Shown here: positions 9 through 12,361 of the stretch, piece after piece
How positions within the stretch are numbered: the stretch's first letter is position 1
How the letters are laid out: the number at the start of each line of letters is the position of its first letter
Source of the DNA: Candidatus Aminicenantota bacterium
GTDB lineage: Bacteria > Acidobacteriota > Aminicenantia > UBA2199
DNA: 12,361 bases
NCBI GenBank assembly: GCA_020355945.1
Contig: CP070627.1
Coordinates: forward strand, 9,022,555-9,034,915
Direction of reading: 5' to 3'
The notes under the pieces: model-generated
What the model was told of the DNA's origin: nothing
The model's input: the letters and a program-made list of their open reading frames with translations, nothing else
Database searches by the model: none
Program-made: the position numbers and the translations under genes

Positions 9-2663
9 TTAAGAAACACCAAGCTTATTTTTGACATAGTCGATCGCATTTCTAAATCTGTCGTTCATTTCCAGGAGGCCGAAATCCAATAGAGTTCTGA
101 CAAACTTCGTTGGGTAATCCTGATGGCAGACAATGGGAATTCCCAGAAATCCTAACAGTAGTTCTATGTATTCATCCCGTCTGGCTTCGTCCACAGCAAT
201 TGTTTCAATCTCAAGCTCGAAATATTTGCAATCCTCTCTAGTGCTGAATGCGTCCAACTCCAGGGTCAGCTCACTTGCAGTTTCAACAGTAAGCCTGGTA
301 TTGACCATACTGGCGACATTTTCAAAATCTATATCACCGGGGGATGCTATATTTTTTCCCTTGAAATCCTCCTGGAATTCATTCCATAGAAGTTCCCTGA
401 AGAAATCAGGTAGTCGATCGAAACTCACCTCAATGTGATTCCGGGAATCTTTTGAGAAAAAATAAGGTGTAACGTTAAATTCTTTCTCCCATCGTTCCCG
501 CGTACCGCCATTTGCTTTCTTGCCTTTCTTTTTGATAGTAATGATAGCGCGTTCCGGTGTATGCTCTATCTTCTCAATTCTGATCCTAACCATCGCCTTA
601 TTATCCATGATGACGCCGGATTTATCATAAAAATAGTGGTTCTGTTGTACGACTTCTTTTACCTTATAGCGCCTTTCTATATGTTCTTTGAGTTTTTTGT
701 AACATGGTTCAGTGAGTATATACTTTATTTCCCGTTCAGGAATACTTTTTGGTGGGTTTGGTAGGGGGATATCATAAACCGCATTAGGGAGAAGTTTTTT
801 GTCGTTTTCATCTTGAAGCTTTGATTCAATTCTCATAAGGCCGGGAATGACGAATTCTTTTTTGTCCTTCCACTCGTCAGTCGGCTTAATGCGGATGACA
901 GAATGGATTTCCCTGGCGACTAAAATGAAGTCGTTCATATCATGTTTCGGGTGATATTGCGTCACTACAGGGTATATACCCTTCCATAATAGCAAACGTT
1001 TTGCTGTCAACATGCTGGACCCGATACTGATAATCTGCTGAGCTGGTTGGAAATAGGAAACGTATTTCGCGGTTTCACCAGTAGTGACTACAACAAAGAT
1101 AGCAGATGCATCCTTTAAACGGGCCGCAAGGCAGACCCTGTCTCCCATAACGATCTTCCTCCGAACCGATTCAACAGTTTCTGCCGGCAGTAATTTCCGC
1201 ACTTCCATTTCCTTCAGATATAACTCCCCGTTATGTAAAATTCGACTAAATCTTTCATCGAAATATTGTACATCATCGTAATTTCCCAGCCACTTCGCCT
1301 CTTCCTTTGCCTTTTCGGCTGTTTGAATTGCAGTCCTTAGTTCCTTTACAACTAAAGCCGGATCGGATTTCGATGAAGCGACCTCTCTTCCCAGCATGAT
1401 GATATCTGCTCCCTCTAGAACCGCTGCTGAAATGTCTCCAATTTCAGCTCTTGTGGAAGGGCTTCCCACAACCATTGATTGAAGGACTTCTGTCGCTATA
1501 ATTACTGGCTTGTTAAACAAGCGACAAACATTGATGATGGCCTTTTGATAGAAGGGGACATGATACTTATCTGCTTCTACAGCCAGGTCGCCCCGGGCAA
1601 CCACTACACCATCATAGGTTTCACAAATTGCTTTAATAGGATTTTCGATATATAAATCAATAAGTCGGAGGTATCTTTCATGATCCTTTTCGGCGACGCG
1701 TTTTTCGTACACCTTTTGATCTTTCAGACCTTTGGCTTTACAGTAATTTATAGCTTCATCCTTATCAACAGCAAATATCGTTTCAATCTTGGCGAATATT
1801 AAGGGAGAGTGCCTTTCCTCTGTTTTCCTATTTTTATTTAAATCGACTATTCTCTTTTTTAACTCGAAGTACTCGAGCGGGGAACAGACAAAAGATACAC
1901 AGATGAGATCAAAATCATTCTCCAGCGCCCATTCTAAATCTTCAAAGTCTTTCTGCTGAAGAATATAGGGGAAGATATAGCCCTTAGGGTTAACTCCCTG
2001 GGCTTGTGAAAAGAAAAAGTCATAAGCAACCTCTTCTATTATTGTTCTAACGAAATCATTTTTAGGGCTGCATGATTGAATACGTAGATTACACCTACCG
2101 TTTTTTATGCTTATATTCTCTTTAATTGTTTTAAAGCTGTCTATTGTAGTTTGAAGCCTCCAGGTTTTATCAATGCATAACACTCCCTGGCTATCGGAAG
2201 GGGCAATAGGTTTAAGTGTATTTTCATCAATGGGTAATGTTTCTCTTATGTGTTCATCATCCCAATTAACGTTATCACTGTAAAGGTAGACTACATCTCC
2301 GATATAAGGGCGATTCCACTGTTTCTCTTTTTTTAATGTTTTTTCTCTTTCATGAATGCTGATGAGTTTCTTCACCCTAACTTTGGGTCCTGCCAGGTCT
2401 AAGGAAGTTGCAATTGGTTGTCGGCGTGCTTCTGAAAGGAGGTTTATATTCTTTAAAACAGAGGACACAGGAAGGTTGGGTTTGGTTCCAAAATTGAAGT
2501 AACCTTTTTCAATTCTGGCCGCATTAAATCGAAAAATTGATGCACCATTATGAAGCATATTCTCAAGTTGTTCCGTTTTGTAATTTGAATTGCCTATTGT
2601 AGCCATGATTCGTGTCTTTGGTAGATCAAGGCTGAGGTGACTCAATACTGTGTTCTTCGCCAT
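9..2663 (-). CDS. pyk: Pyruvate kinase-CYTH fusion protein, downstream copy (884 aa)
   Basis: Residues 1-590 are a full pyruvate kinase (PEP + ADP to pyruvate + ATP, cytosolic). Visible motifs are FRFNAAR (44-50), LDLAGPKVR (88-96), the catalytic Lys/Glu of FAKIET (K292, E294), the metal-binding Asp of ARGDL (D359), IATEVLQSM (T391) and a C-terminal allosteric-type domain (about 505-590). Residues about 640-855 are a CYTH/triphosphate tunnel domain with the ExExK signature (E643, E645, K647), RIRIE (693-697), TIKKKG (709-714), RERWEKE (722-728), LELD (801-804) and ELEIE (816-820); such domains bind triphosphates with metal ions. Typical pyruvate kinases are about 470-590 aa, so this is a true fusion. 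The invariant SGE after IML is GRE here (G425, R426), unlike the paralogue. About 35-40 extra residues lie between K292 and D359. The ATG has an AAAGGAGA site upstream, and the gene sits 57 bp behind its paralogue, probably in one operon. The combined function is not known to me. Confidence 0.9.
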   Translation of the reverse strand: MAKNTVLSHLSLDLPKTRIMATIGNSNYKTEQLENMLHNGASIFRFNAARIEKGYFNFGTKPNLPVSSVLKNINLLSEARRQPIATSLDLAGPKVRVKKLISIHEREKTLKKEKQWNRPYIGDVVYLYSDNVNWDDEHIRETLPIDENTLKPIAPSDSQGVLCIDKTWRLQTTIDSFKTIKENISIKNGRCNLRIQSCSPKNDFVRTIIEEVAYDFFFSQAQGVNPKGYIFPYILQQKDFEDLEWALENDFDLICVSFVCSPLEYFELKKRIVDLNKNRKTEERHSPLIFAKIETIFAVDKDEAINYCKAKGLKDQKVYEKRVAEKDHERYLRLIDLYIENPIKAICETYDGVVVARGDLAVEADKYHVPFYQKAIINVCRLFNKPVIIATEVLQSMVVGSPSTRAEIGDISAAVLEGADIIMLGREVASSKSDPALVVKELRTAIQTAEKAKEEAKWLGNYDDVQYFDERFSRILHNGELYLKEMEVRKLLPAETVESVRRKIVMGDRVCLAARLKDASAIFVVVTTGETAKYVSYFQPAQQIISIGSSMLTAKRLLLWKGIYPVVTQYHPKHDMNDFILVAREIHSVIRIKPTDEWKDKKEFVIPGLMRIESKLQDENDKKLLPNAVYDIPLPNPPKSIPEREIKYILTEPCYKKLKEHIERRYKVKEVVQQNHYFYDKSGVIMDNKAMVRIRIEKIEHTPERAIITIKKKGKKANGGTRERWEKEFNVTPYFFSKDSRNHIEVSFDRLPDFFRELLWNEFQEDFKGKNIASPGDIDFENVASMVNTRLTVETASELTLELDAFSTREDCKYFELEIETIAVDEARRDEYIELLLGFLGIPIVCHQDYPTKFVRTLLDFGLLEMNDRFRNAIDYVKNKLGVS

Positions 2664-2684
2664 GGTGTTCTCCTTTTGTCTAAA

Positions 2685-2706
2685 TTGAAAAGAAATTCTT
2701 TTTCAA
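2685..2706. repeat. Inverted repeat in the intercistronic gap of the two kinase-CYTH genes
   Basis: TTGAAAAGAA is followed almost immediately by TTCTTTTTCAA, a near-perfect AT-rich palindrome with one unpaired base. It lies between the stop of the upstream copy (2721) and the Shine-Dalgarno of the downstream copy. In RNA it could form a weak hairpin, perhaps a processing site that tunes the ratio of the two products. There is no GC-rich stem, so it is not a convincing terminator. Confidence 0.45.
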
Positions 2707-2720
2707 CCATTTTATTGCAT

Positions 2721-5654
2721 TCAAGTACAAGCACCGGTACATCCTTTTCGGGGAGAAATATTAAGTTCTTTACAGACATATTCGATAGCATTTCTAAATT
2801 TTTTTGTAATTTTCTTAGGGTTGAGATCGAGCATTGTCATGACAAATTTAGATGGGTAATCCTTATGGCAGACAATTGGAATTTCAAGAGATCTAAATAG
2901 TAGTTCTATGTATTCATCCCGTCTGTCTTCATCGGCAGCAATCGTTTCAATCTCCAGCTCATAATAATTGCAATCCCCTTTAGTACCTTTAGTAGTAAAT
3001 GCGTCCAACTCCAGGGTCAACTCACTTGCTGTTTCAACAGTAAGCCTGGTATTGACCATCTTGGCGACATTTTCAAACCCGATATCTTTTGGGGATTCAA
3101 TATTTTCCCTCTTAAAATCATCCTGGAATTCATTCCATATAAGTTCCTTGAAGAAATCAGGTAGATATTCGAAACTATCTTTAGGGTGTTTTGATTCAAG
3201 ATCGCGTGTAACGTTAAATTCTTTCTCCCATCGTTCTACTGTCCCATCTTTTACTTTTTTGCCTTCCTTTTTTATAGTAAGTATAGCACGTTCCGCTTCT
3301 TGATCTACCCTCTCAATTCTGATCCTGACCATCGCCTTTTTATTTTCGATGACACCGGTATTATCATAGAAATAGTAGTTCTCTTGCTTAATAAGTTTGG
3401 ACTTTTGTTTGATTTCTTTTTCTATATCTCCTTTGAATTTTTTTTCTAAATCTTGTTTGACTTTTTCTTCTTCTAAATAGTGTTTGATTTTTTCTTCTAA
3501 ATCTTGTTTGACTTTTTCTTCTAAATCTTGTTTGATTTCTTCTTCTAAATCTTGTTTGACTTTTTCTTCTAAATATTGTTTGACTTTTTCTTCTAAATAC
3601 TGTTTGACTTCTCTTTCTTTATATTGTTTGACTTTTTCTTCTAAATATTTTCTGAGTTTTTTGTAATATGGCTCAGTGAGTATATACTTTATTTCTCGTT
3701 CTGGAGTAACTTCTGAAGGATTTGGTAGTGGTATCTCATGGACTGTATTTGGGAGGAGCTTTTTCTCTTTTCTATCTTGAAGTTTAGATTCAACCCTCAA
3801 AAGGCCAGGAATGAAGAATTCTTTCTTATCCTTCCAATCGCCAATCGGCTTAATGTTGATGACAGAATGGATCTCCCTGGTGATTAAAATGAAGTCGTTC
3901 AGCTTATGTTTCGAGGGATACTGCATTACAACAGGGTATATACCCTTCCATAGTAGCAAACGTCTTGCTACCTCCAGGCTGGACCCGATACTGATAATAT
4001 GTTGAACCGGACGAAAGTAGGAAACGTATCTTGCGGTTGCCCCTGTAGTAACACTTACGAAGATGGTGCTTGCGTTCTTTGCGCGAGCCGCAAGGCAAAT
4101 CCTGCTTCCCATACCGATCTTCCATCGAACCGATTCAACATCTTCAGACGACATTAATTTTAATTTTTCCATTTCCTTAAGATGGGATTCTCCCTCATGC
4201 AAACGGGGACTAAATTTTTCATAGAAATATTGTATATCACCGGCCTTTTTCAGCCACTGCTCCTTTTCTTCTGCCTCTTCGGCTGTCTCAATTGCTTTTT
4301 TTAATTCCTCCACCACTAAAACCGGATCATAATCCGTTGAGGCGACTTCTCCGGCTAGCATGATGACATCAGCTCCGTCGAGAACCGCTGTGGCAATGTC
4401 TCCAATCTCAGCTCGTGTGGAGGGATTTCCTTTATCCATTGATAGAAGGACCTCTGTGGCTATAATTACTGATTTGTTAGTCAAACGACTGGCCTCGATA
4501 ATGTTCTTCTGATAGAAAGGAACACGATACTTATCTGCTTCTACAGCCAGGTCTCCCCGGGCAACCATTATCCCATCAAAGGTTTCACAAATTGCTTTTA
4601 TAGGGTTTTCTTCATATAACTCAATAAGCCGAAGGTATCTTTCATGATCCTCTTTGGATACACGTTCTTTGTACACGTTTTGATTTTTAAGACCTTTAGA
4701 TTGACAATAATTCTTAGCTTCATCTTTATCAACAGCAAATATCGTTTCAATCTTGGCGAATATTAAGGGAGGTTGCCAATCATCTTTTTCCCTATTCTTC
4801 TTTAAATCGACTATTCTCTTTTTTAACTCGAAGTACTCGAGCGGGGAACAGACAAAAGATACACAGATGAGATCAAAGTCATTCTCGAGCGCCCAATCGA
4901 AATCTTTAAAGTCTTTCTTCTTAAGAATGTCTGGAAATATATAGCCTTTAGGGTTAACGCCCTGGTCTTCTGAAAAGAAAAAGTCATTGGCAACTTCTTT
5001 TACTTCAGTCTTGACAAAGTCATTTTGGGGGCCACTTGATTTAATTTGTAGATTACACTTCCCATCCTTTACGCTTACGTATTCTTTCACGGTTTTGAAA
5101 CTTTCGATTGTAGTCTGGAGCCTCCATTTTTTATCAATGCGAACCGGTTTTTGAGTACTGGCAGGCTCTATGGAATCTAGTGTCTCTTTTATATGTTCAG
5201 CATCCCAATCAATCTCCTTACTGTAAAGGTAGACAATATCTCCGATTTCAGGCTGATTCCATTGTCTCTCGTCTTTGGCACTTTTCAATTGTTTATCACC
5301 CTTTTCTTTTTGGGGTGCCTCCCTTCGGTTATGATAGCTGATAAATTTCTTCATTCTTACTTTAGGTCCTGCCAGGTCTAAGGAGGTGGTGATAGGTTGC
5401 CTAAGTTCTTCCGAGAGATGGTTTATGTCGGTTAAAATGGGTTTTATATCAATGTGTTTAGTATCTCCGCTTTCTTCTTTAAACTCAAATTTACCCTTCT
5501 CAATCCTGGCTGCATTGAAGCGAAAAATCGTGGCTCCTGCCTCAAGCATCTTTTTTAGTATGTTCGTTTTGTAATTTGCATTGCCTATGGTGGCCATGAT
5601 ACGGGTCTTTGGTAGATCAAGGCTAAGGTGACTCACTACTGTGTTTTTTGCCAT
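2721..5654 (-). CDS. pyk: Pyruvate kinase-CYTH fusion protein, upstream copy with octapeptide insertion (977 aa)
   Basis: This is a paralogue of the following gene, sharing the first six residues and most motifs. The pyruvate kinase part (1-600) has FRFNAAR (44-50), LDLAGPKVR (92-100), FAKIET (K301, E303), ARGDL (D368), IATEVLLSM (T400) and IMLAGE (431-436). All core catalytic residues are present. The CYTH part (about 650-935) has ExExK (E652, E654, K656), RIRIE (777-781), TIKKEG (793-798), VERWEKE (806-812), LELD (881-884) and ELEIE (899-903). Between the first CYTH strand and the YYFYD strand lie ten tandem eight-residue units of the form (Y/D)LEEKVKQ (670-750), predicted as a long charged helix. 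Start: ATG preceded by GAGGA, with the promoter about 40-65 bp upstream. It is the first gene of a likely two-gene operon, divergent from the NDT/TIR-like gene. The tail ends in an unusual Cys-containing stretch (GCTGACT). Confidence 0.9.
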   Translation of the reverse strand: MAKNTVVSHLSLDLPKTRIMATIGNANYKTNILKKMLEAGATIFRFNAARIEKGKFEFKEESGDTKHIDIKPILTDINHLSEELRQPITTSLDLAGPKVRMKKFISYHNRREAPQKEKGDKQLKSAKDERQWNQPEIGDIVYLYSKEIDWDAEHIKETLDSIEPASTQKPVRIDKKWRLQTTIESFKTVKEYVSVKDGKCNLQIKSSGPQNDFVKTEVKEVANDFFFSEDQGVNPKGYIFPDILKKKDFKDFDWALENDFDLICVSFVCSPLEYFELKKRIVDLKKNREKDDWQPPLIFAKIETIFAVDKDEAKNYCQSKGLKNQNVYKERVSKEDHERYLRLIELYEENPIKAICETFDGIMVARGDLAVEADKYRVPFYQKNIIEASRLTNKSVIIATEVLLSMDKGNPSTRAEIGDIATAVLDGADVIMLAGEVASTDYDPVLVVEELKKAIETAEEAEEKEQWLKKAGDIQYFYEKFSPRLHEGESHLKEMEKLKLMSSEDVESVRWKIGMGSRICLAARAKNASTIFVSVTTGATARYVSYFRPVQHIISIGSSLEVARRLLLWKGIYPVVMQYPSKHKLNDFILITREIHSVINIKPIGDWKDKKEFFIPGLLRVESKLQDRKEKKLLPNTVHEIPLPNPSEVTPEREIKYILTEPYYKKLRKYLEEKVKQYKEREVKQYLEEKVKQYLEEKVKQDLEEEIKQDLEEKVKQDLEEKIKHYLEEEKVKQDLEKKFKGDIEKEIKQKSKLIKQENYYFYDNTGVIENKKAMVRIRIERVDQEAERAILTIKKEGKKVKDGTVERWEKEFNVTRDLESKHPKDSFEYLPDFFKELIWNEFQDDFKRENIESPKDIGFENVAKMVNTRLTVETASELTLELDAFTTKGTKGDCNYYELEIETIAADEDRRDEYIELLFRSLEIPIVCHKDYPSKFVMTMLDLNPKKITKKFRNAIEYVCKELNISPRKGCTGACT
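3405..3647 (-). repeat. Ten 24-bp tandem repeats encoding a (Y/D)LEEKVKQ helix
   Basis: Ten in-frame units of 24 bp encode YLEEKVKQ, YKEREVKQ, YLEEKVKQ, YLEEKVKQ, DLEEEIKQ, DLEEKVKQ, DLEEKIKH, YLEEEKVKQ (27 bp), DLEKKFKG and DIEKEIKQ. The central units are nearly identical at the DNA level, while the outer units are more diverged, as expected for internal expansion. The paralogue has only one comparable stretch here (IERRYKVKE, 662-670), so the array arose or was lost after the duplication. It likely forms a Glu/Lys-rich single alpha helix or coiled coil. Confidence 0.92.
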
Positions 5655-5690
5655 TATGTCCTCATTTTCTTGAAACTGTTAAAAAATATA

Positions 5691-6049: not shown

Positions 6050-7384
6050 ATGAATGAAAAAAATGTTTGTGGGGCGAATGGGGCATCACAAGAAATTCTA
6101 AATGCTTTCATAATGATGCCTTTTGGATCTGATGATGAAGGTGAAACTGTTTCAAAAAAGGTGCAAGATGCGCTTTTTTACCTGGTGCTATTTGGCTTAA
6201 ATGATGCCTACTACCAGAACTATATAAATCGCTCAGTCAGGAAGTGGAAGCCAATAAATCTTGAACGTGCTGATATAGGGGTGGGACGATCGGTAGATCT
6301 ACTTGAAAATGTGCTGCGTAAAATTGATGAAAGCGATTTCTGTGTTGTTGATTGTACATTCAATAATATGAATGTCGCATTGGAATGTGGATATGCAATG
6401 GCAAATAATAAGTTTATTATCCAATTGCAGCGGCCAAAGGACGATATAAAACTCAAGCAAGGTGAAGAATATCAAATGCCTCACATCAGTGATTTATCAG
6501 GTAAATTGATGCAAGATGTAAAGATTAAACCACTAATGGACCATAAAATGTGGCCGGATGTTTCTGAAATCATACAAGACTCCACTATATTGTTTAACCA
6601 GGCAAAATATTTTTCAGAAAATAAAGATAAAATAGCACCGTTCACTGATAACAAAGAAGCAAAAGAGACGTTTTTATATAATCTTGTCCTGGAAAAATCA
6701 AAAGGGAAAGATATCGTAGATTTAAGAGATTTTCAATCGTTGTATAGAAAATTTATTGTAAGACCTCTTTATAGTGTAATTCGTCCCTTGTCAGAAAAAC
6801 TTGATTCGGGTGCTACAGAAGTGGAGTACACCTGTAAAGCATACGCTTCCAGGGATGATGCAAATTTCCCGGGTATTTTTTCCAAGGCAAAAAATATCAT
6901 TAAAATTCTAACTACGAATTTACAGGGTTTAGAAGAGTACATTGATTCAATGGAAGTTGCATTGAGTCAAAGTCAATGTAATAAAAAAGTTAAGCTAGAA
7001 GTTCTTACATTGAATCCCGATAGTGAATTTGTGAATGCTCGTGGAAAACTAATTGGGAAAGAAATCGCCAGGTTTAGAACTGAGATGAGTGAGAGTCTTA
7101 GGCTTTTTATAACCAAACTTTATCAGAAATATCCCAATCAAGTTACAATAAAGATATATAGTGAATTCCCAACCCAGATTACATATTTTGTTGATAATAA
7201 TGTATATTCCTCTGTTGTATCGGTCAACCACCAAAGTCGGAAAAATATGGTTTTTGAAGTATCAATATCAAGGAAAGGTGTAGCTGAATCTTTTCTTCAG
7301 CATTGGGACACGATTTGGGCCAGGGCAACAGAAGTGTTGGCACCGAGATCAGGGGAACAAGAAGAAGATAGGAAGGCGAAATAA
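6050..7384 (+). CDS. NDT/TIR-like domain protein with C-terminal PLD-like domain (444 aa)
   Basis: The N-terminal domain (about 16-150) resembles the nucleoside 2-deoxyribosyltransferase/TIR-like fold. It has a first strand with AFIMMPFG (19-26), ADIGVGRSVDLLENVLRKI (74-92) and then DFCVVDC (96-102), followed by NMNVALECGYAMANNKFII (106-124), where Glu112 occupies the position of the family's catalytic Glu. Such domains cleave N-glycosidic bonds of nucleosides or NAD-like nucleotides and serve as effectors in several bacterial conflict systems. A helical linker follows (about 165-250). The C-terminal domain (about 265-428) has the pattern KNIIKILTTNL, KLEVLTLNPDSEFV, TIKIYSEFP and FLQHWDTIWARA, typical of PLD-like domains but without an HxK motif, so catalysis there is doubtful. 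No signal peptide or membrane segment is seen. It is the only plus-strand gene and stands alone, convergent with the PanD-like gene. The substrate is unknown, and a sensor-effector reading is inference. Confidence 0.75.
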   Translation: MNEKNVCGANGASQEILNAFIMMPFGSDDEGETVSKKVQDALFYLVLFGLNDAYYQNYINRSVRKWKPINLERADIGVGRSVDLLENVLRKIDESDFCVVDCTFNNMNVALECGYAMANNKFIIQLQRPKDDIKLKQGEEYQMPHISDLSGKLMQDVKIKPLMDHKMWPDVSEIIQDSTILFNQAKYFSENKDKIAPFTDNKEAKETFLYNLVLEKSKGKDIVDLRDFQSLYRKFIVRPLYSVIRPLSEKLDSGATEVEYTCKAYASRDDANFPGIFSKAKNIIKILTTNLQGLEEYIDSMEVALSQSQCNKKVKLEVLTLNPDSEFVNARGKLIGKEIARFRTEMSESLRLFITKLYQKYPNQVTIKIYSEFPTQITYFVDNNVYSSVVSVNHQSRKNMVFEVSISRKGVAESFLQHWDTIWARATEVLAPRSGEQEEDRKAK

Positions 7385-7469: not shown

Positions 7470-8336
7470 TTATTTGTTTGATGGTGGAGGGTGTAGTGCA
7501 TTAAATATAGTGGGTTTTCGTATTTTATCGGTAATAACAAATGATGCTTCGGAGATGATATCACCAAAACCTGCAACTTTTGAAAGGGCTCCTGAAATAA
7601 TGACTTTATCGTTACGAGTATTGGGGACCACATAGCTCTCTGCAGAGATACCCCCTCTGCTTGAATTATAAACAAAAATCGACTGGTTTTTGATCATACC
7701 TGCCTTCTTCATAGTCTCTACCGGTAATTCTGCACTCAGTTCGATACAGTGGTGTTCAATTTCAGCCACCTTAAGCCCGGATGCCAGGTTTGAAAGCATG
7801 ATTCTCGGAAGTTGTTTTCGCTGGTCTATAACTTCTTTCTCAAGTTCTTGATATTTATCAATCTCTGAATAATCTGAGGTTTTACCGGGAAATTCCAGGG
7901 CCATTTTCGCCTGGGATAGACCATTGGAACGAGTGCCGTGATTGGGATGAAATCTAATGTCGATTATAGGAATCGGGAGGGTGCCCTGGCAATAAGCTTC
8001 ATATTGATCTGAATCGAGATATGTTCCTGAAATGATACAACAGTACACTTCTTTATCCTTTTTCTCCTCTTTCTCCAACAGATGTGCCAGGGCCCCCCGT
8101 GCTTCAACGACTTCGCTTTTACCGGGAATGGCAAAGCTATACATGCGATTTTGCCAGTTATTACCACCATGCCGGGTAACCATGATTCTCTCATAGGGCA
8201 CTATGTCGCCAAGTTTCATCATCTTTTCAGGAATTACAAGCCCCTCACTCAAATATTCACTGGGGTTCCGAATAGATGATGTGACAAGAATATTATGAAT
8301 CGCTGTCCGTTTGAATTGATAAAACATTGTCTGCAT
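7470..8336 (-). CDS. Tandem aspartate 1-decarboxylase (PanD)-like repeat protein (288 aa)
   Basis: PanD is normally about 115-130 aa, self-cleaves at Gly-Ser to form a pyruvoyl group and makes beta-alanine. This protein holds two PanD-like units. Unit 1 (about 4-105) matches at IHNILVT (13-19), the GLVIPEKMM segment (32-40), SFAIPGK (67-73) and GALAHL (81-86). Unit 2 (about 176-268) matches at LPRIML (176-181), ETMKKAG (207-213), ESYVVP (233-238), ISGALSKVAGFGD (247-259) and EASFVI (263-268). Active-site residues are eroded: the Lys9 position is Ala or Leu; unit 1 lacks a clear Gly-Ser (LSEG); unit 2 has Leu200-Ser201 there; Tyr58 survives as Tyr235 only in unit 2; Arg54 survives as Arg64 only in unit 1; Asn72 is lost in both. 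So classic decarboxylation is unlikely, though Ser201 could still be processed. Start: ATG with GAGG upstream and a strong promoter. The role is unknown; a double-psi barrel binding protein is my inference. Confidence 0.7.
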   Translation of the reverse strand: MQTMFYQFKRTAIHNILVTSSIRNPSEYLSEGLVIPEKMMKLGDIVPYERIMVTRHGGNNWQNRMYSFAIPGKSEVVEARGALAHLLEKEEKKDKEVYCCIISGTYLDSDQYEAYCQGTLPIPIIDIRFHPNHGTRSNGLSQAKMALEFPGKTSDYSEIDKYQELEKEVIDQRKQLPRIMLSNLASGLKVAEIEHHCIELSAELPVETMKKAGMIKNQSIFVYNSSRGGISAESYVVPNTRNDKVIISGALSKVAGFGDIISEASFVITDKIRKPTIFNALHPPPSNK

Positions 8337-8458: not shown

Positions 8459-10018
8459 CTAACGGGCCCAATATTCGGCACACTCTAACATAGCTTTAAG
8501 AACCTTTCTCCAAATTTCATCTCCTTCTGGAATCAGGTTTTTGAGGTCAAACAGGGCTTCGGATAAATCTTCAAATTCATATTTACCTTTTGAGATACCC
8601 CGGGATAACTTTTCAGTTAGTTTATCAGTAAATAGTTCTTTTTGATTAACATCATCTCCCCTTTCCAGTATTTCGATTATTGCTTCCAGGGCATCTTGAA
8701 TGATTTCCGAGAAATTATTAAGAATATTCTTAATCCTCTCACTTGAAACCTCGTCCAAATAAGGTTTTTCTTTATTACTTGCTTTGTTTATGTTAATCGC
8801 CACCACCTCTTTTACAATGCTTCGGATACATTCCTGATGTGTGGACAGAGTACAGTGGTTTTTGTTTAGATGCTCTTTAAATTTAGTGATTGAAAATATA
8901 AAACTCATTAATTCACCAAATGATTTATTTTTTTCAGGAGCAAATTCATTACAACATTTTGCATTTTTTATACCCGAAGGCAGTGTTTCAAGCATAACTT
9001 TGAATATTTCAGTTCTTTTGCCCCATGGCAAATACGGTTTACTATCGGCCCATATTTTTTTAAAGTGTCTCGTCAGGTCATCATAAATCTCCACTCCAAT
9101 CTCTGTCCCATTACCGATATCTTTATTTTTGACTCTTGTTTTCATCTCATCTGAAGTTACCCTGGGGAGATGAAGTTTCAAATGAAATTGATCTCTTACA
9201 CGACTGCCACCCAGTGGGAAGCCTAAAAGGAACCGGTTATCAGCCCGGAATATCATAATTATCGGATATACGGTATACGTCCTGATTTGCCAATTCTTGA
9301 GCCGTTTTTTATGCAATCCTTCCAATGCCTTGCGAATTATATTTGAATATTCATCCCTTGACCCTATCTCATCTGATTCTCCCATATCATTGAATCTGCG
9401 ATAAACTGCAGAGCATTCAGGATGAAGTGACATCATGCGTACCTTAGCGTTTGGGTTTATAGGATTCTCAAGCAAGTAGTTATATATTTCCCACAGATTT
9501 GGAGTTAAGATATCAATCTCTTTAATCTCTTTAGCATCTTTGAAGAGTTCTTCTAAGACATCTTTCTCTCTTTTGGAAAAAACGTTTGATATAGGGCCGC
9601 GCCAGCGGCACCACCTATTTTTTTCATTCTTCTTCATTAACCAATAATCAAAATATTCTGTCTTAAATTCTTCCGAAACCTCTTCTGCAATGTATTCAGC
9701 GTCTGCTTTCATCCGATTAAATTCCGATTTGTATTTGCCCATCCTGGAAGCGAGTTGTGGAATGAATATTCCTAGAATAGTAACTCCAGTCAGAGGCAGC
9801 ACGATAGAAAAAAGATTTATCGCCCAATTAGCAGATTTAAACACATTTTTAATTATTGGCTCAGTAAGCGCACCAGCGAATACTAAAGAAAGGCCTAAAA
9901 TAATAAAAATAAGAGATACTACATAAAAGCGCAGCCGAGAGACTTCCATGGTATCAAGCCATTTTTTATACCGGTAATTTTCTTTACCTTCAATGTTAAC
10001 AGGTTCATGAGTTGACAT
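8459..10018 (-). CDS. Two-TM membrane protein with PLD-like domain and helical tail (519 aa)
   Basis: Two hydrophobic helices near the N-terminus (about 29-51 and 67-88) predict a membrane hairpin; the rest is soluble, most likely cytosolic. Residues about 130-320 show the PLD-like pattern also seen in the NDT/TIR-like protein: KEIKEIDILTPNL, AKVRMMSLHPECSAVYRRF, NWQIRTYTVYPIIMIFRADN, GTEIGVEIYDDLTRHFKKIW. No HKD catalytic motif is visible, so ligand sensing or protein interaction is more likely than hydrolysis. Residues about 325-519 are mainly helical and unrecognised, with several Cys and His (KCCNEF, HCTLSTHQEC) that could bind a metal. The gene follows PEP synthase after only four bases, and its AAGGAGG site (10027-10033, 8 nt spacing) lies within the last codons of that gene, implying translational coupling. 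Function unknown; a membrane-anchored partner of the PEP synthase or of the NDT/TIR-like protein is inference. Confidence 0.75.
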   Translation of the reverse strand: MSTHEPVNIEGKENYRYKKWLDTMEVSRLRFYVVSLIFIILGLSLVFAGALTEPIIKNVFKSANWAINLFSIVLPLTGVTILGIFIPQLASRMGKYKSEFNRMKADAEYIAEEVSEEFKTEYFDYWLMKKNEKNRWCRWRGPISNVFSKREKDVLEELFKDAKEIKEIDILTPNLWEIYNYLLENPINPNAKVRMMSLHPECSAVYRRFNDMGESDEIGSRDEYSNIIRKALEGLHKKRLKNWQIRTYTVYPIIMIFRADNRFLLGFPLGGSRVRDQFHLKLHLPRVTSDEMKTRVKNKDIGNGTEIGVEIYDDLTRHFKKIWADSKPYLPWGKRTEIFKVMLETLPSGIKNAKCCNEFAPEKNKSFGELMSFIFSITKFKEHLNKNHCTLSTHQECIRSIVKEVVAININKASNKEKPYLDEVSSERIKNILNNFSEIIQDALEAIIEILERGDDVNQKELFTDKLTEKLSRGISKGKYEFEDLSEALFDLKNLIPEGDEIWRKVLKAMLECAEYWAR

Positions 10019-10022
10019 TTTT

Positions 10023-12361
10023 TTATCCTCCTTCCTCGGATTTTATATTTTTCTCCATCTCAATGATACGCTGCCGCATACTGAGAAAACTTTCAGGATC
10101 CGGATCAAGGCCAATATAGTCAATGCCATTCTCAATAAGATAGCGAGCAAACTCCGGGTAATTGGAGACAGCAACCCCAGTTAAGCCGATCAATACTTTT
10201 ACTTCTTTTCCATTAATAATCTTAGGCGGTACCGAATGTATTTTGTCGATGGCTTCTTTGATAAACTTAAGGACGGCTGAGTTACGTTCATCAAAAACGT
10301 GGGCCAGTAGTTCGGAATCTCTATCAGTACCCAGTACCATCTGGGCAAGGTCGTTTGAACCGATGTTAAACATATCAAAGATTTCAGCAAATTCCACAGC
10401 TTCAATCACACTTGAGGGGACCTCAGTTTCAGCCGTTACCAATAAGCCATCTTTATGTTGTTCAATTCCACATTCACGTAGTGCTTTAACCACATTTCTT
10501 GCTTCCTCTACAGACCTGCAAAAAGGGATCATGATATGCATATTTGAGAACCCCATTTCTTCACGGACCCGTTTAAATGCGCGGCATTCCAGCTCGAATA
10601 CAGGGCGGTACCTCTCAGAGTAGTAACGTGATGCGCTGCGCCATCCGATCATGGGATTATTATCAATAGGCTCATAAAGAAACCCTCCGACAAGGGCCCG
10701 GAACTCATTACTCTTAAAATCACACAACTTCATATAGACTTCTTTTGGATAAACGGATGCTGCTATTTTAGCCATTCCTTCTGACAACTTTTCAACGAAA
10801 AATTCAACTTTGTTTTCGTAACCTTTACTCCGGCTTTCGATTGCATCGATAACTTCTTGAATCCTGTCAACGCCCTTAAGCGCATATTTTTTCTCCATTT
10901 GCTTTAATATCTTAATATCCTGTTTCATCTCTTCGTAGTAAACGAAAGCAAATGGGTGTATGCCTATATAAGAGTACATGATAAATTCCTCCCTACCCAT
11001 GGCGACGCCATCGCTGGGAAGGTTGGAGGCAACCAGCGCGGCATCTGGCAGCCCGGTGAGAAACATTAGTTTTGTCCTTGTTGGTGAATCATCGATGGGT
11101 TTTTCTATCAATTCAAATTTAAGAAGACCATCAAAAACTTTTCCTTCATCTCCATCTACACACGACACAGTTATGGGTTGACCGGTGTGAATAACCTCTG
11201 TTGCACTCTTGGTTCCAATAATGCAAGGTATACCCATTTCCCTGGAGACAATAGCCGCATGACAGGTACGTCCCCCTCTATTGGTCACAATGGCGGAGGC
11301 CTTTTTCATTATTGGCATCCAGGCAGGGTCTGTCATGTCGGTAACCAATACATCACCGCGTCTAAATTCTGCCAGTTGGTCCGGACTTGAAAGAACTGCT
11401 GCTGGTCCTTGCCCGATTTTCTTCCCAATCGCTTGCCCGGTAATCAATACGTTCGACCTTTCTCTCAATGCATAGGTTCGTAAACAAGGCTCTTTACGCG
11501 AATAAGCAGTAAGCGGCCTCGCCTGTACGATCCATAATTGCCCGCTGCCATCCACTACCCACTCGATATCCATAGGGGTAAATTTACCCATTTTTGAACT
11601 GAAATGTTTCTCAATAAAAAGGCATTGTTTTCCAAGTGAAATCAGGGTTTCATTTGAAAGAGAAAAAGAGTTGAGTTGTGCGGGGGAAAGTTGTTCACGG
11701 ACGATCTGATGCTTTTGAGAAGACCAGGCATATTTTACATCTTTTACCCCAAATCGACTGCCAATGATGGGAAAATGCCCTTGTTCCAATGCAGGCTTGA
11801 AAATAAGGTATTCATCAGGTGTCAAACGCCCTTTAACCAATCCCTCACCTAGCCCGAATACGGAGTTGATAACGATACCATTTTCAAAGCCGGTTTCAAG
11901 ATCGACAGTAAATGCTACCCCGGAACTTCCTTTGTCACTTTTTATCATCTTTTGAACCACCACAGCCATTTGAACATCCTGGTGATTGATATTTTGTTCT
12001 TCTCGATAGCGAATAGCCCTATCAGTAAACAAACTTGAAAAACACTTGCGACAGGCATTAAGGAGTTCATCAGGGCCGGAAACATACAAAAAACTATCGT
12101 GCATCCCGGCAAAAGAAGCAGAAGGCAAATCCTCGGCAGTGGCAGATGATCGCACAGCAACAAAAAACGGCCTGGAATGATCGCCTTTTTCCAATTCAGA
12201 GTATGCATTAAGAATACTTTCCCTGATATTTTTGGGGAATTGGGCAGCTTCGATAATGGCCCGGATCTGTCGGGACTTGTACTGAAGAGAAATTATATCA
12301 TCCTCTTCTATTTCAGAAAATAATTTTTGTGTTTTTTTGGTGATATCATTTGCTTTTATGA
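10023..12361 (-). CDS. ppsA: Phosphoenolpyruvate synthase-like protein, 5' end outside the window
   Basis: PEP synthase converts pyruvate + ATP + water to PEP + AMP + Pi through a phosphohistidine. About 778 residues are visible. The frame stays open to the right edge (for example SRQIRAIIEAAQF upstream of a TTG at 12194), so that TTG is not the start; by comparison with the E. coli enzyme roughly 50-70 residues are missing. Domains in order: ATP-grasp with VAVRSSATAEDLP and PMDIEW/IVQARP; swivelling domain with GDVLVTDMTDPAWMPIMKKA and GGRTCHAAI (catalytic His codon at 11259-11261); C-terminal TIM barrel with MGREEFI (Arg at 10992-10994), NPMIGWRSASRY, IMIPFCRS, TETEVPS, FNIGSNDLAQ and DERN. 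The barrel Cys that protonates the enolate in relatives (GICGQ) is Thr here (GLTGV, codon 10179-10181), and RGAGRY is RSASRY. The enzyme may therefore be altered in its last half-reaction or act on another acceptor. First gene of an operon with the two-TM PLD-like protein. Confidence 0.9.
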   Translation of the reverse strand, partial: IKANDITKKTQKLFSEIEEDDIISLQYKSRQIRAIIEAAQFPKNIRESILNAYSELEKGDHSRPFFVAVRSSATAEDLPSASFAGMHDSFLYVSGPDELLNACRKCFSSLFTDRAIRYREEQNINHQDVQMAVVVQKMIKSDKGSSGVAFTVDLETGFENGIVINSVFGLGEGLVKGRLTPDEYLIFKPALEQGHFPIIGSRFGVKDVKYAWSSQKHQIVREQLSPAQLNSFSLSNETLISLGKQCLFIEKHFSSKMGKFTPMDIEWVVDGSGQLWIVQARPLTAYSRKEPCLRTYALRERSNVLITGQAIGKKIGQGPAAVLSSPDQLAEFRRGDVLVTDMTDPAWMPIMKKASAIVTNRGGRTCHAAIVSREMGIPCIIGTKSATEVIHTGQPITVSCVDGDEGKVFDGLLKFELIEKPIDDSPTRTKLMFLTGLPDAALVASNLPSDGVAMGREEFIMYSYIGIHPFAFVYYEEMKQDIKILKQMEKKYALKGVDRIQEVIDAIESRSKGYENKVEFFVEKLSEGMAKIAASVYPKEVYMKLCDFKSNEFRALVGGFLYEPIDNNPMIGWRSASRYYSERYRPVFELECRAFKRVREEMGFSNMHIMIPFCRSVEEARNVVKALRECGIEQHKDGLLVTAETEVPSSVIEAVEFAEIFDMFNIGSNDLAQMVLGTDRDSELLAHVFDERNSAVLKFIKEAIDKIHSVPPKIINGKEVKVLIGLTGVAVSNYPEFARYLIENGIDYIGLDPDPESFLSMRQRIIEMEKNIKSEEGG
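10027..10033 (-). promoter_or_regulatory. Shine-Dalgarno site of the two-TM gene within the ppsA 3' end
   Basis: The minus strand reads AAGGAGG here, formed by the last Glu-Gly-Gly codons of the PEP synthase-like gene. It is 8 nt from the ATG at 10018. With the stop and start separated by four A bases, ribosomes finishing the first gene can reinitiate on the second. Confidence 0.8.

Follow-up and report, generated by a model that had tools for sequence, protein, structure and literature searches.

Computational analysis of a 12,361-nucleotide stretch of a Candidatus Aminicenantota bacterium genome (assembly GCA_020355945.1, contig CP070627.1, positions 9,022,555 to 9,034,915), hereafter the window, identifies two adjacent genes that each encode a pyruvate kinase (PK) fused to a C-terminal CYTH domain of the triphosphate tunnel metalloenzyme (TTM) fold. 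The two proteins belong to a family with conserved architecture, folds and active-site residues that forms a single group in a phylogenetic tree. With a probability of roughly 0.55, we interpret them as bifunctional enzymes that combine a K+-independent-type PK with a triphosphate tunnel metalloenzyme resembling AtTTM3, the tunnel probably also tuning the kinase.

A tandem pair of PK-CYTH fusion genes

Both genes lie on the reverse strand of the window, which is part of a contig of 9,131,798 bp. Protein A (P0001; 9..2663, 884 amino acids) is recognized by its open reading frame and by Pfam matches to PK, PK_C and CYTH, and protein B (P0005; 2721..5654, 977 amino acids) by its open reading frame, Pfam matches to PK and PK_C and an AlphaFold2 model. 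The open reading frames are complete, begin with ATG and are separated by 57 bp. Sequences resembling ribosome-binding sites can be read on the same strand upstream of protein A (AAGGAG, 2670..2675) and of protein B (GAGG, 5660..5663). The two proteins are 69% identical across 873 aligned residues, with nonsynonymous (dN) and synonymous (dS) divergence of 0.19 and 0.57, respectively, and a dN/dS ratio of ~0.33. An earlier note, made from the sequence without database searches, had described a tandem pair of PK-CYTH fusions at this location, and this description is borne out by the open reading frames, domains, structure models and conservation.

The CYTH/TTM tunnel domain

The tunnel domain of protein A (approximately residues 642-882; 18..740, reverse strand) is detected by Pfam CYTH with an E-value of 2.3e-9, above the curated cut-off. 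Its AlphaFold2 model has eight strands and a pLDDT of 87.2, and matches TTM enzymes in Foldseek and VIA-align comparisons. The domain search suggested in the earlier note thus found PK and PK_C in both proteins and CYTH in protein A, and no Pfam CYTH match in protein B. The domain of protein B (approximately residues 650-963; 2766..3707, reverse strand) is delineated by the full-length model (pLDDT 84.7, pTM 0.83), which contains eight tunnel strands, and by the family alignment, in which all eight core CYTH residues are present. It most likely escapes Pfam because a coiled coil is inserted within the domain. The eight-stranded tunnel that the note expected after residue 640 is therefore predicted for A on its own and, for B, inside the full-length model.

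The insert of protein B is a coiled-coil hairpin (residues 661-748; 3411..3674, reverse strand) located between tunnel strands 1 and 2, with model helices at residues 661-709 and 718-748. It largely coincides with a 24-bp tandem repeat of 10.6 copies detected by Tandem Repeats Finder (3405..3661), which is in frame, shows 82% matches and encodes an eight-residue, KQDLEEKV-like coiled-coil unit. In ten-residue blocks, pLDDT is 95 at the base of the hairpin and 52-80 elsewhere, so its exact shape is unsure. The copy number of the repeat may differ among strains.

The ExExK signature occupies residues 643-647 of protein A (EREIK; 723..737) and residues 652-656 of protein B (3687..3701), both on the reverse strand. 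The RxR pair, the next Lys and the strand-8 ExE are likewise aligned in both copies, in agreement with the intact signature and later basic and acidic strands noticed previously. Within the family of 22 proteins described below, the Glu, Glu and Lys of ExExK are kept in 21 members, and all eight tunnel residues (these three, the Arg pair of RxR, the next Lys and the Glu pair of strand 8) in 20, the exceptions being P0010 and P0018. No match was found when the CYTH fragment was compared with the sequences of the PDB by phmmer, and the best 60 of 109 matches of a profile search were PKs only; the TTM assignment rests on Pfam, the structure model and these residues.

Published motif rules for TTM enzymes (PMC8233210) allow us to compare the possible activities. 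By these rules, class IV cyclases have HFxxxxExExK, a small residue in place of the first Arg and Ala instead of the second Glu; thiamine triphosphatases have Trp or Tyr before RxR (W/YxRxR). Proteins A and B fit the rules for inorganic-triphosphatase-type TTMs: HF is absent, and the first Arg of RxR and both strand-8 Glu residues are present, as the residues are in 20 of the 22 members. The position before RxR is Met in the window copies and Met, Thr, Ser or Leu in all 22 proteins. Among the activities listed in the earlier note, triphosphate hydrolysis thus finds the appropriate residues, whereas adenylyl cyclase (HF absent, first Arg and both Glu residues kept) and thiamine triphosphatase (Met instead of Trp or Tyr) were rejected on the motif rules as unlikely.

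The pyruvate kinase part

The PK part spans approximately residues 14-635 of protein A (759..2624) and residues 12-644 of protein B (3723..5621), both on the reverse strand. In protein A the boundaries follow Pfam, with the end set by the hairpin strand that precedes the tunnel and by analogy with protein B, which matches the fold of solved PKs through the last strand, the match ending at residue 643-644. Pfam E-values for PK and PK_C are 4.2e-39 and 9e-10 in protein A and 1.8e-41 and 6.7e-10 in protein B, all passing the curated cut-offs. NCBIfam TIGR01064 scores the two copies at 178.9 and 201.9 bits against a cut-off of 306.4, and the remaining NCBIfam PK models also match only below their cut-offs, so both copies are divergent PKs. 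The catalytic Lys, Glu, Asp and Thr, which we take to be positions 269, 271, 295 and 327 of the rabbit enzyme, are present in A and B in the family alignment; together with Pfam, this confirms the complete PK with these four residues that had been proposed for both proteins.

Conserved positions were compared between 21 family rows and 82 ordinary PKs of 455-500 amino acids, selected from 84 proteins (P0121-P0204) that had been picked as matches to the family profile. Out of 86 positions nearly invariant in ordinary PKs, 61 are retained in at least 80% of the family rows, and 21 of the 22 members, all but P0002, have the active-site Lys, Glu, Arg, Gly, Asp and Thr. The Gln that follows the catalytic Thr is replaced by Glu in 20 of 21 rows (ATQ to ATE). 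A Thr conserved in 80 of the 82 ordinary PKs is found in none of the family rows, all of which have Val or Ala; in known PK structures this position belongs to the effector phosphate loop. The catalytic Lys-x-Glu and ARGD are connected by a loop of 38-74 residues in 21 family rows (P0003, in which the pattern matched elsewhere, was excluded), compared with a median of 20 and a range of 20-163 in 179 of the 182 other PK matches.

Lys117 together with Leu113 is a hallmark of K+-independent PKs according to PMC8835810, where Gln114 with Leu, Ile or Val at position 120 is reported for 77% of that group. Each of Lys117 and Leu113 occurs in 20 of the 21 family rows, and both window copies have both. 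Gln114 is absent from A and B, which have Ala at this position, and position 120 is Val in A and Met in B.

Family and distribution

The survey for the same architecture elsewhere that the earlier note had called for did find relatives. In a protein search, the top 22 among the best 120 of 328 matches are of the PK-CYTH kind, separated from ordinary PKs by a wide score gap; the family thus comprises at least 22 proteins (P0001-P0022), including the window pair. At E<=0.01, PK and PK_C are detected in all 22 and CYTH in 19. P0018 (700 amino acids) lacks the tunnel end and P0022 the N-terminal part. P0004, a protein of a Candidatus Aminicenantes bacterium, is 65% identical. P0010, which has a PilZ domain at its end, has lost tunnel residues and some PK motif residues; it is possibly a degenerate signalling form.

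A search with just the CYTH region gave eight proteins, all within the 22. No new PK-CYTH protein appeared among the best 120 of 1598 matches of a profile protein search; since this search also missed the known members P0015, P0017 and P0019, the number 22 is a lower bound. A first scan of the contigs of named genomes gave no confirmed relative. A second scan gave at least 581, of which the best 80 cover the PK part only, with none extending beyond query residue 614, so absence of the fusion from these genomes is not demonstrated. Whole-genome searches of 17 distinct genomes gave no match and, lacking a positive control, provide no evidence of absence.

In a phylogenetic tree built without P0022, the 21 family rows are separated from seven ordinary PKs by a branch with 100/100 support, to which a long-branch warning applies. 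An assembly artefact was rejected, the 22 proteins being found on contigs of 19 different sizes and from several sources. An origin in phages or plasmids was also discarded: tblastn comparison of the CYTH region of protein A with 50,697 phage and 72,556 plasmid records gave no matches. Viral contigs contained no confirmed relative. A role in anti-phage defence was dismissed after PADLOC gave no match at E<=0.1 for six proteins of the window.

Proposed function and alternative explanations

In the bifunctional reading, the PK part would convert phosphoenolpyruvate (PEP) and ADP to pyruvate and ATP. For the tunnel domain, joined by a short link at the last strand of the PK C domain, the most likely reaction is two-metal-ion hydrolysis of inorganic triphosphate or of a nucleotide at its gamma phosphate. 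Binding or turnover of triphosphate in the tunnel probably replaces control by sugar phosphates and tunes the kinase, as argued by the loss of the effector-loop Thr in all 21 rows. The coiled-coil spike of copy B could tether it to a partner such as copy A. A more elaborate scheme, which we consider quite unlikely and offer as a conjecture, is a self-contained PEP valve: the tunnel would hydrolyse the nucleotide product of the kinase, or a triphosphate derived from it, and return the acceptor, so that PEP would flow to pyruvate regardless of the ATP/ADP ratio, the tunnel triphosphate taking over the signalling of control from the lost sugar-phosphate site. In this scheme, the altered RxNxSH pocket described below may even point to a changed phosphate acceptor.

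Several observations weigh against the bifunctional reading. The Ser of the RxNxSH motif, found in 80 of the 82 ordinary PKs, is replaced in all 21 family rows, and its His, invariant in the 82, is kept in only 11 of the 21 and is Arg in A and B. The handling of ADP and of the cation may therefore differ. In SGETA-like motifs, 81 of the 82 ordinary PKs have Ser ahead of the conserved Glu; A has Gly and B has Ala at this position. In P0002 the catalytic Lys is replaced by Arg and the catalytic Asp by Asn, states that a pattern search found in none of the 182 other PK matches, and tunnel residues are lost in P0010. For most TTM enzymes, moreover, the natural substrate is itself a matter still to be settled (PMC8233210).

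The substitutions of P0002 lend some plausibility to the idea that the lineage of copy A is becoming a regulatory PK paralogue in a hetero-oligomer with copy B, which is compatible with the bifunctional reading and which we regard as possible, if somewhat unlikely. P0002 is the nearest relative of A (76% identity) and is grouped with it at 100/100. For the hetero-oligomer or division of labour suggested in the earlier note, the only support is these two substitutions, which copy A itself lacks. Two PK-CYTH genes may also often travel together, as suggested by the equal contig sizes of P0002 and P0008 (81,733 bp each) and of P0009 and P0019 (18,682 bp each), which point to shared contigs without proving them. 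On the other hand, copy A retains the catalytic Lys, Glu, Asp and Thr, unlike P0002, and the dN/dS ratio between the copies also argues against such a change of role. Moreover, P0005 and P0008 group apart in the tree, so the pairs are not simply the result of one shared duplication. The Arg that copy A has at the Gly position of SGETA is no sign of decay, as this Gly is present in only 37 of the 82 ordinary PKs.

The remaining alternatives concern the CYTH domain itself. It could be a non-hydrolysing sensor that binds inorganic triphosphate, polyphosphate, a nucleoside triphosphate or an alarmone and acts as an allosteric gate on the kinase; the absence of the effector-loop Thr from all 21 rows and the distance of only ~7 residues between the PK end and tunnel strand 1 (residue 652) in protein B would suit this role. 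A pure sensor, however, could do without the second-metal Glu, and the hydrolytic-type Glu pairs, the Lys and both Arg residues are kept in 20 of 22 members, which makes this explanation unlikely. That the domain is mainly structural and stabilizes an oligomer appears improbable, since a scaffold has no need of the conserved active-site residues of a TTM fold. Such a role would nevertheless have a parallel in the extra C-terminal sequence (ECTS) of some PKs, which occupies the same place and without which the Thermoplasma acidophilum PK loses its tetramer and most of its activity (PMC12428139). Production of cyclic AMP from the ATP made by the kinase, the domain acting as an adenylyl cyclase, is very improbable given the motifs described above.

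Neighbouring genes

The other end of the window carries a PEP synthase gene (10023-12359, reverse strand; NCBIfam 1.2e-262), which runs off the window edge and whose product catalyses the pyruvate-PEP step in the direction reverse to PK. It does not form one operon with the PK fusions because a forward-strand gene (6050-7384) intervenes. The N-terminal part of the latter's product bears a weak resemblance to nucleoside deoxyribosyltransferases and its C-terminal part resembles DUF5919; neither match reaches the curated cut-off. The gene at 7470-8336 (reverse strand) encodes a 288-amino-acid protein with two stretches resembling the aspartate decarboxylase PanD (Pfam 1.2e-11, above the cut-off); its score is far below the NCBI panD cut-off, and the second stretch has Ser at the self-cleavage position and Leu in place of the preceding Gly. 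The protein encoded at 8459-10018 (reverse strand) has an N-terminal stretch that appears by eye to be membrane-spanning, and a later domain aligns over 202 columns, at 20% identity, with the C-terminal part of the product of the 6050-7384 gene (BLASTP E-value 6e-4).

Comparison with known systems

The PK-CYTH proteins bring together two known domains in a combination that is new, conserved and rare. No paper describing such a protein, or otherwise joining a triphosphate tunnel with pyruvate kinase, was found in the open-licence literature, in line with the earlier note, which knew of no characterized example; nor was a paper covering both Aminicenantes and CYTH found there. Two papers that mention both CYTH and pyruvate kinase appear unrelated, judging from title and abstract. 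As partners of CYTH, PMC8233210 names HD hydrolase, exopolyphosphatase, nucleotidyl kinase, CHAD and phosphoribulokinase-like domains, and it describes the physiological function of the CYTH/TTM enzymes as largely elusive. The conserved covalent link to PK ties one branch of these enzymes to the PEP-pyruvate-ATP node and turns the question of its function into one testable on a single purified protein. If the bifunctional reading is correct, the fusion would constitute a new mode of PK control and might couple triphosphate chemistry to the production of energy.

Among PKs, the closest counterparts are the K+-independent enzymes (PF00224, PF02887), with which the fusion family shares the whole PK fold, the catalytic residues and Leu113/Lys117. 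It differs from them by the loss of the RxNxSH Ser, the ATE motif, the loss of the effector-loop Thr, the longer loop and the C-terminal tunnel. PKs with ECTS likewise carry an additional domain behind the PK C domain; ECTS is described as having another architecture, not a triphosphate tunnel. On the CYTH side, the best structural matches are inorganic triphosphatases of the AtTTM3 type (PF01928), which have the same eight-stranded tunnel, ExExK, RxR and strand-8 ExE. In contrast to these, the fusion domain sits behind a PK; a helical stretch separates its strands 5 and 6 and, in copy B, the coiled coil separates strands 1 and 2. The CYTH domain of E. coli YgiF is N-terminal, and its partner is CHAD rather than a glycolytic enzyme. 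In the plant proteins TTM1 and TTM2, the partner is a phosphoribulokinase/uridine-kinase-like domain, and ExExK, intact in the window pair, is absent according to PMC8233210.
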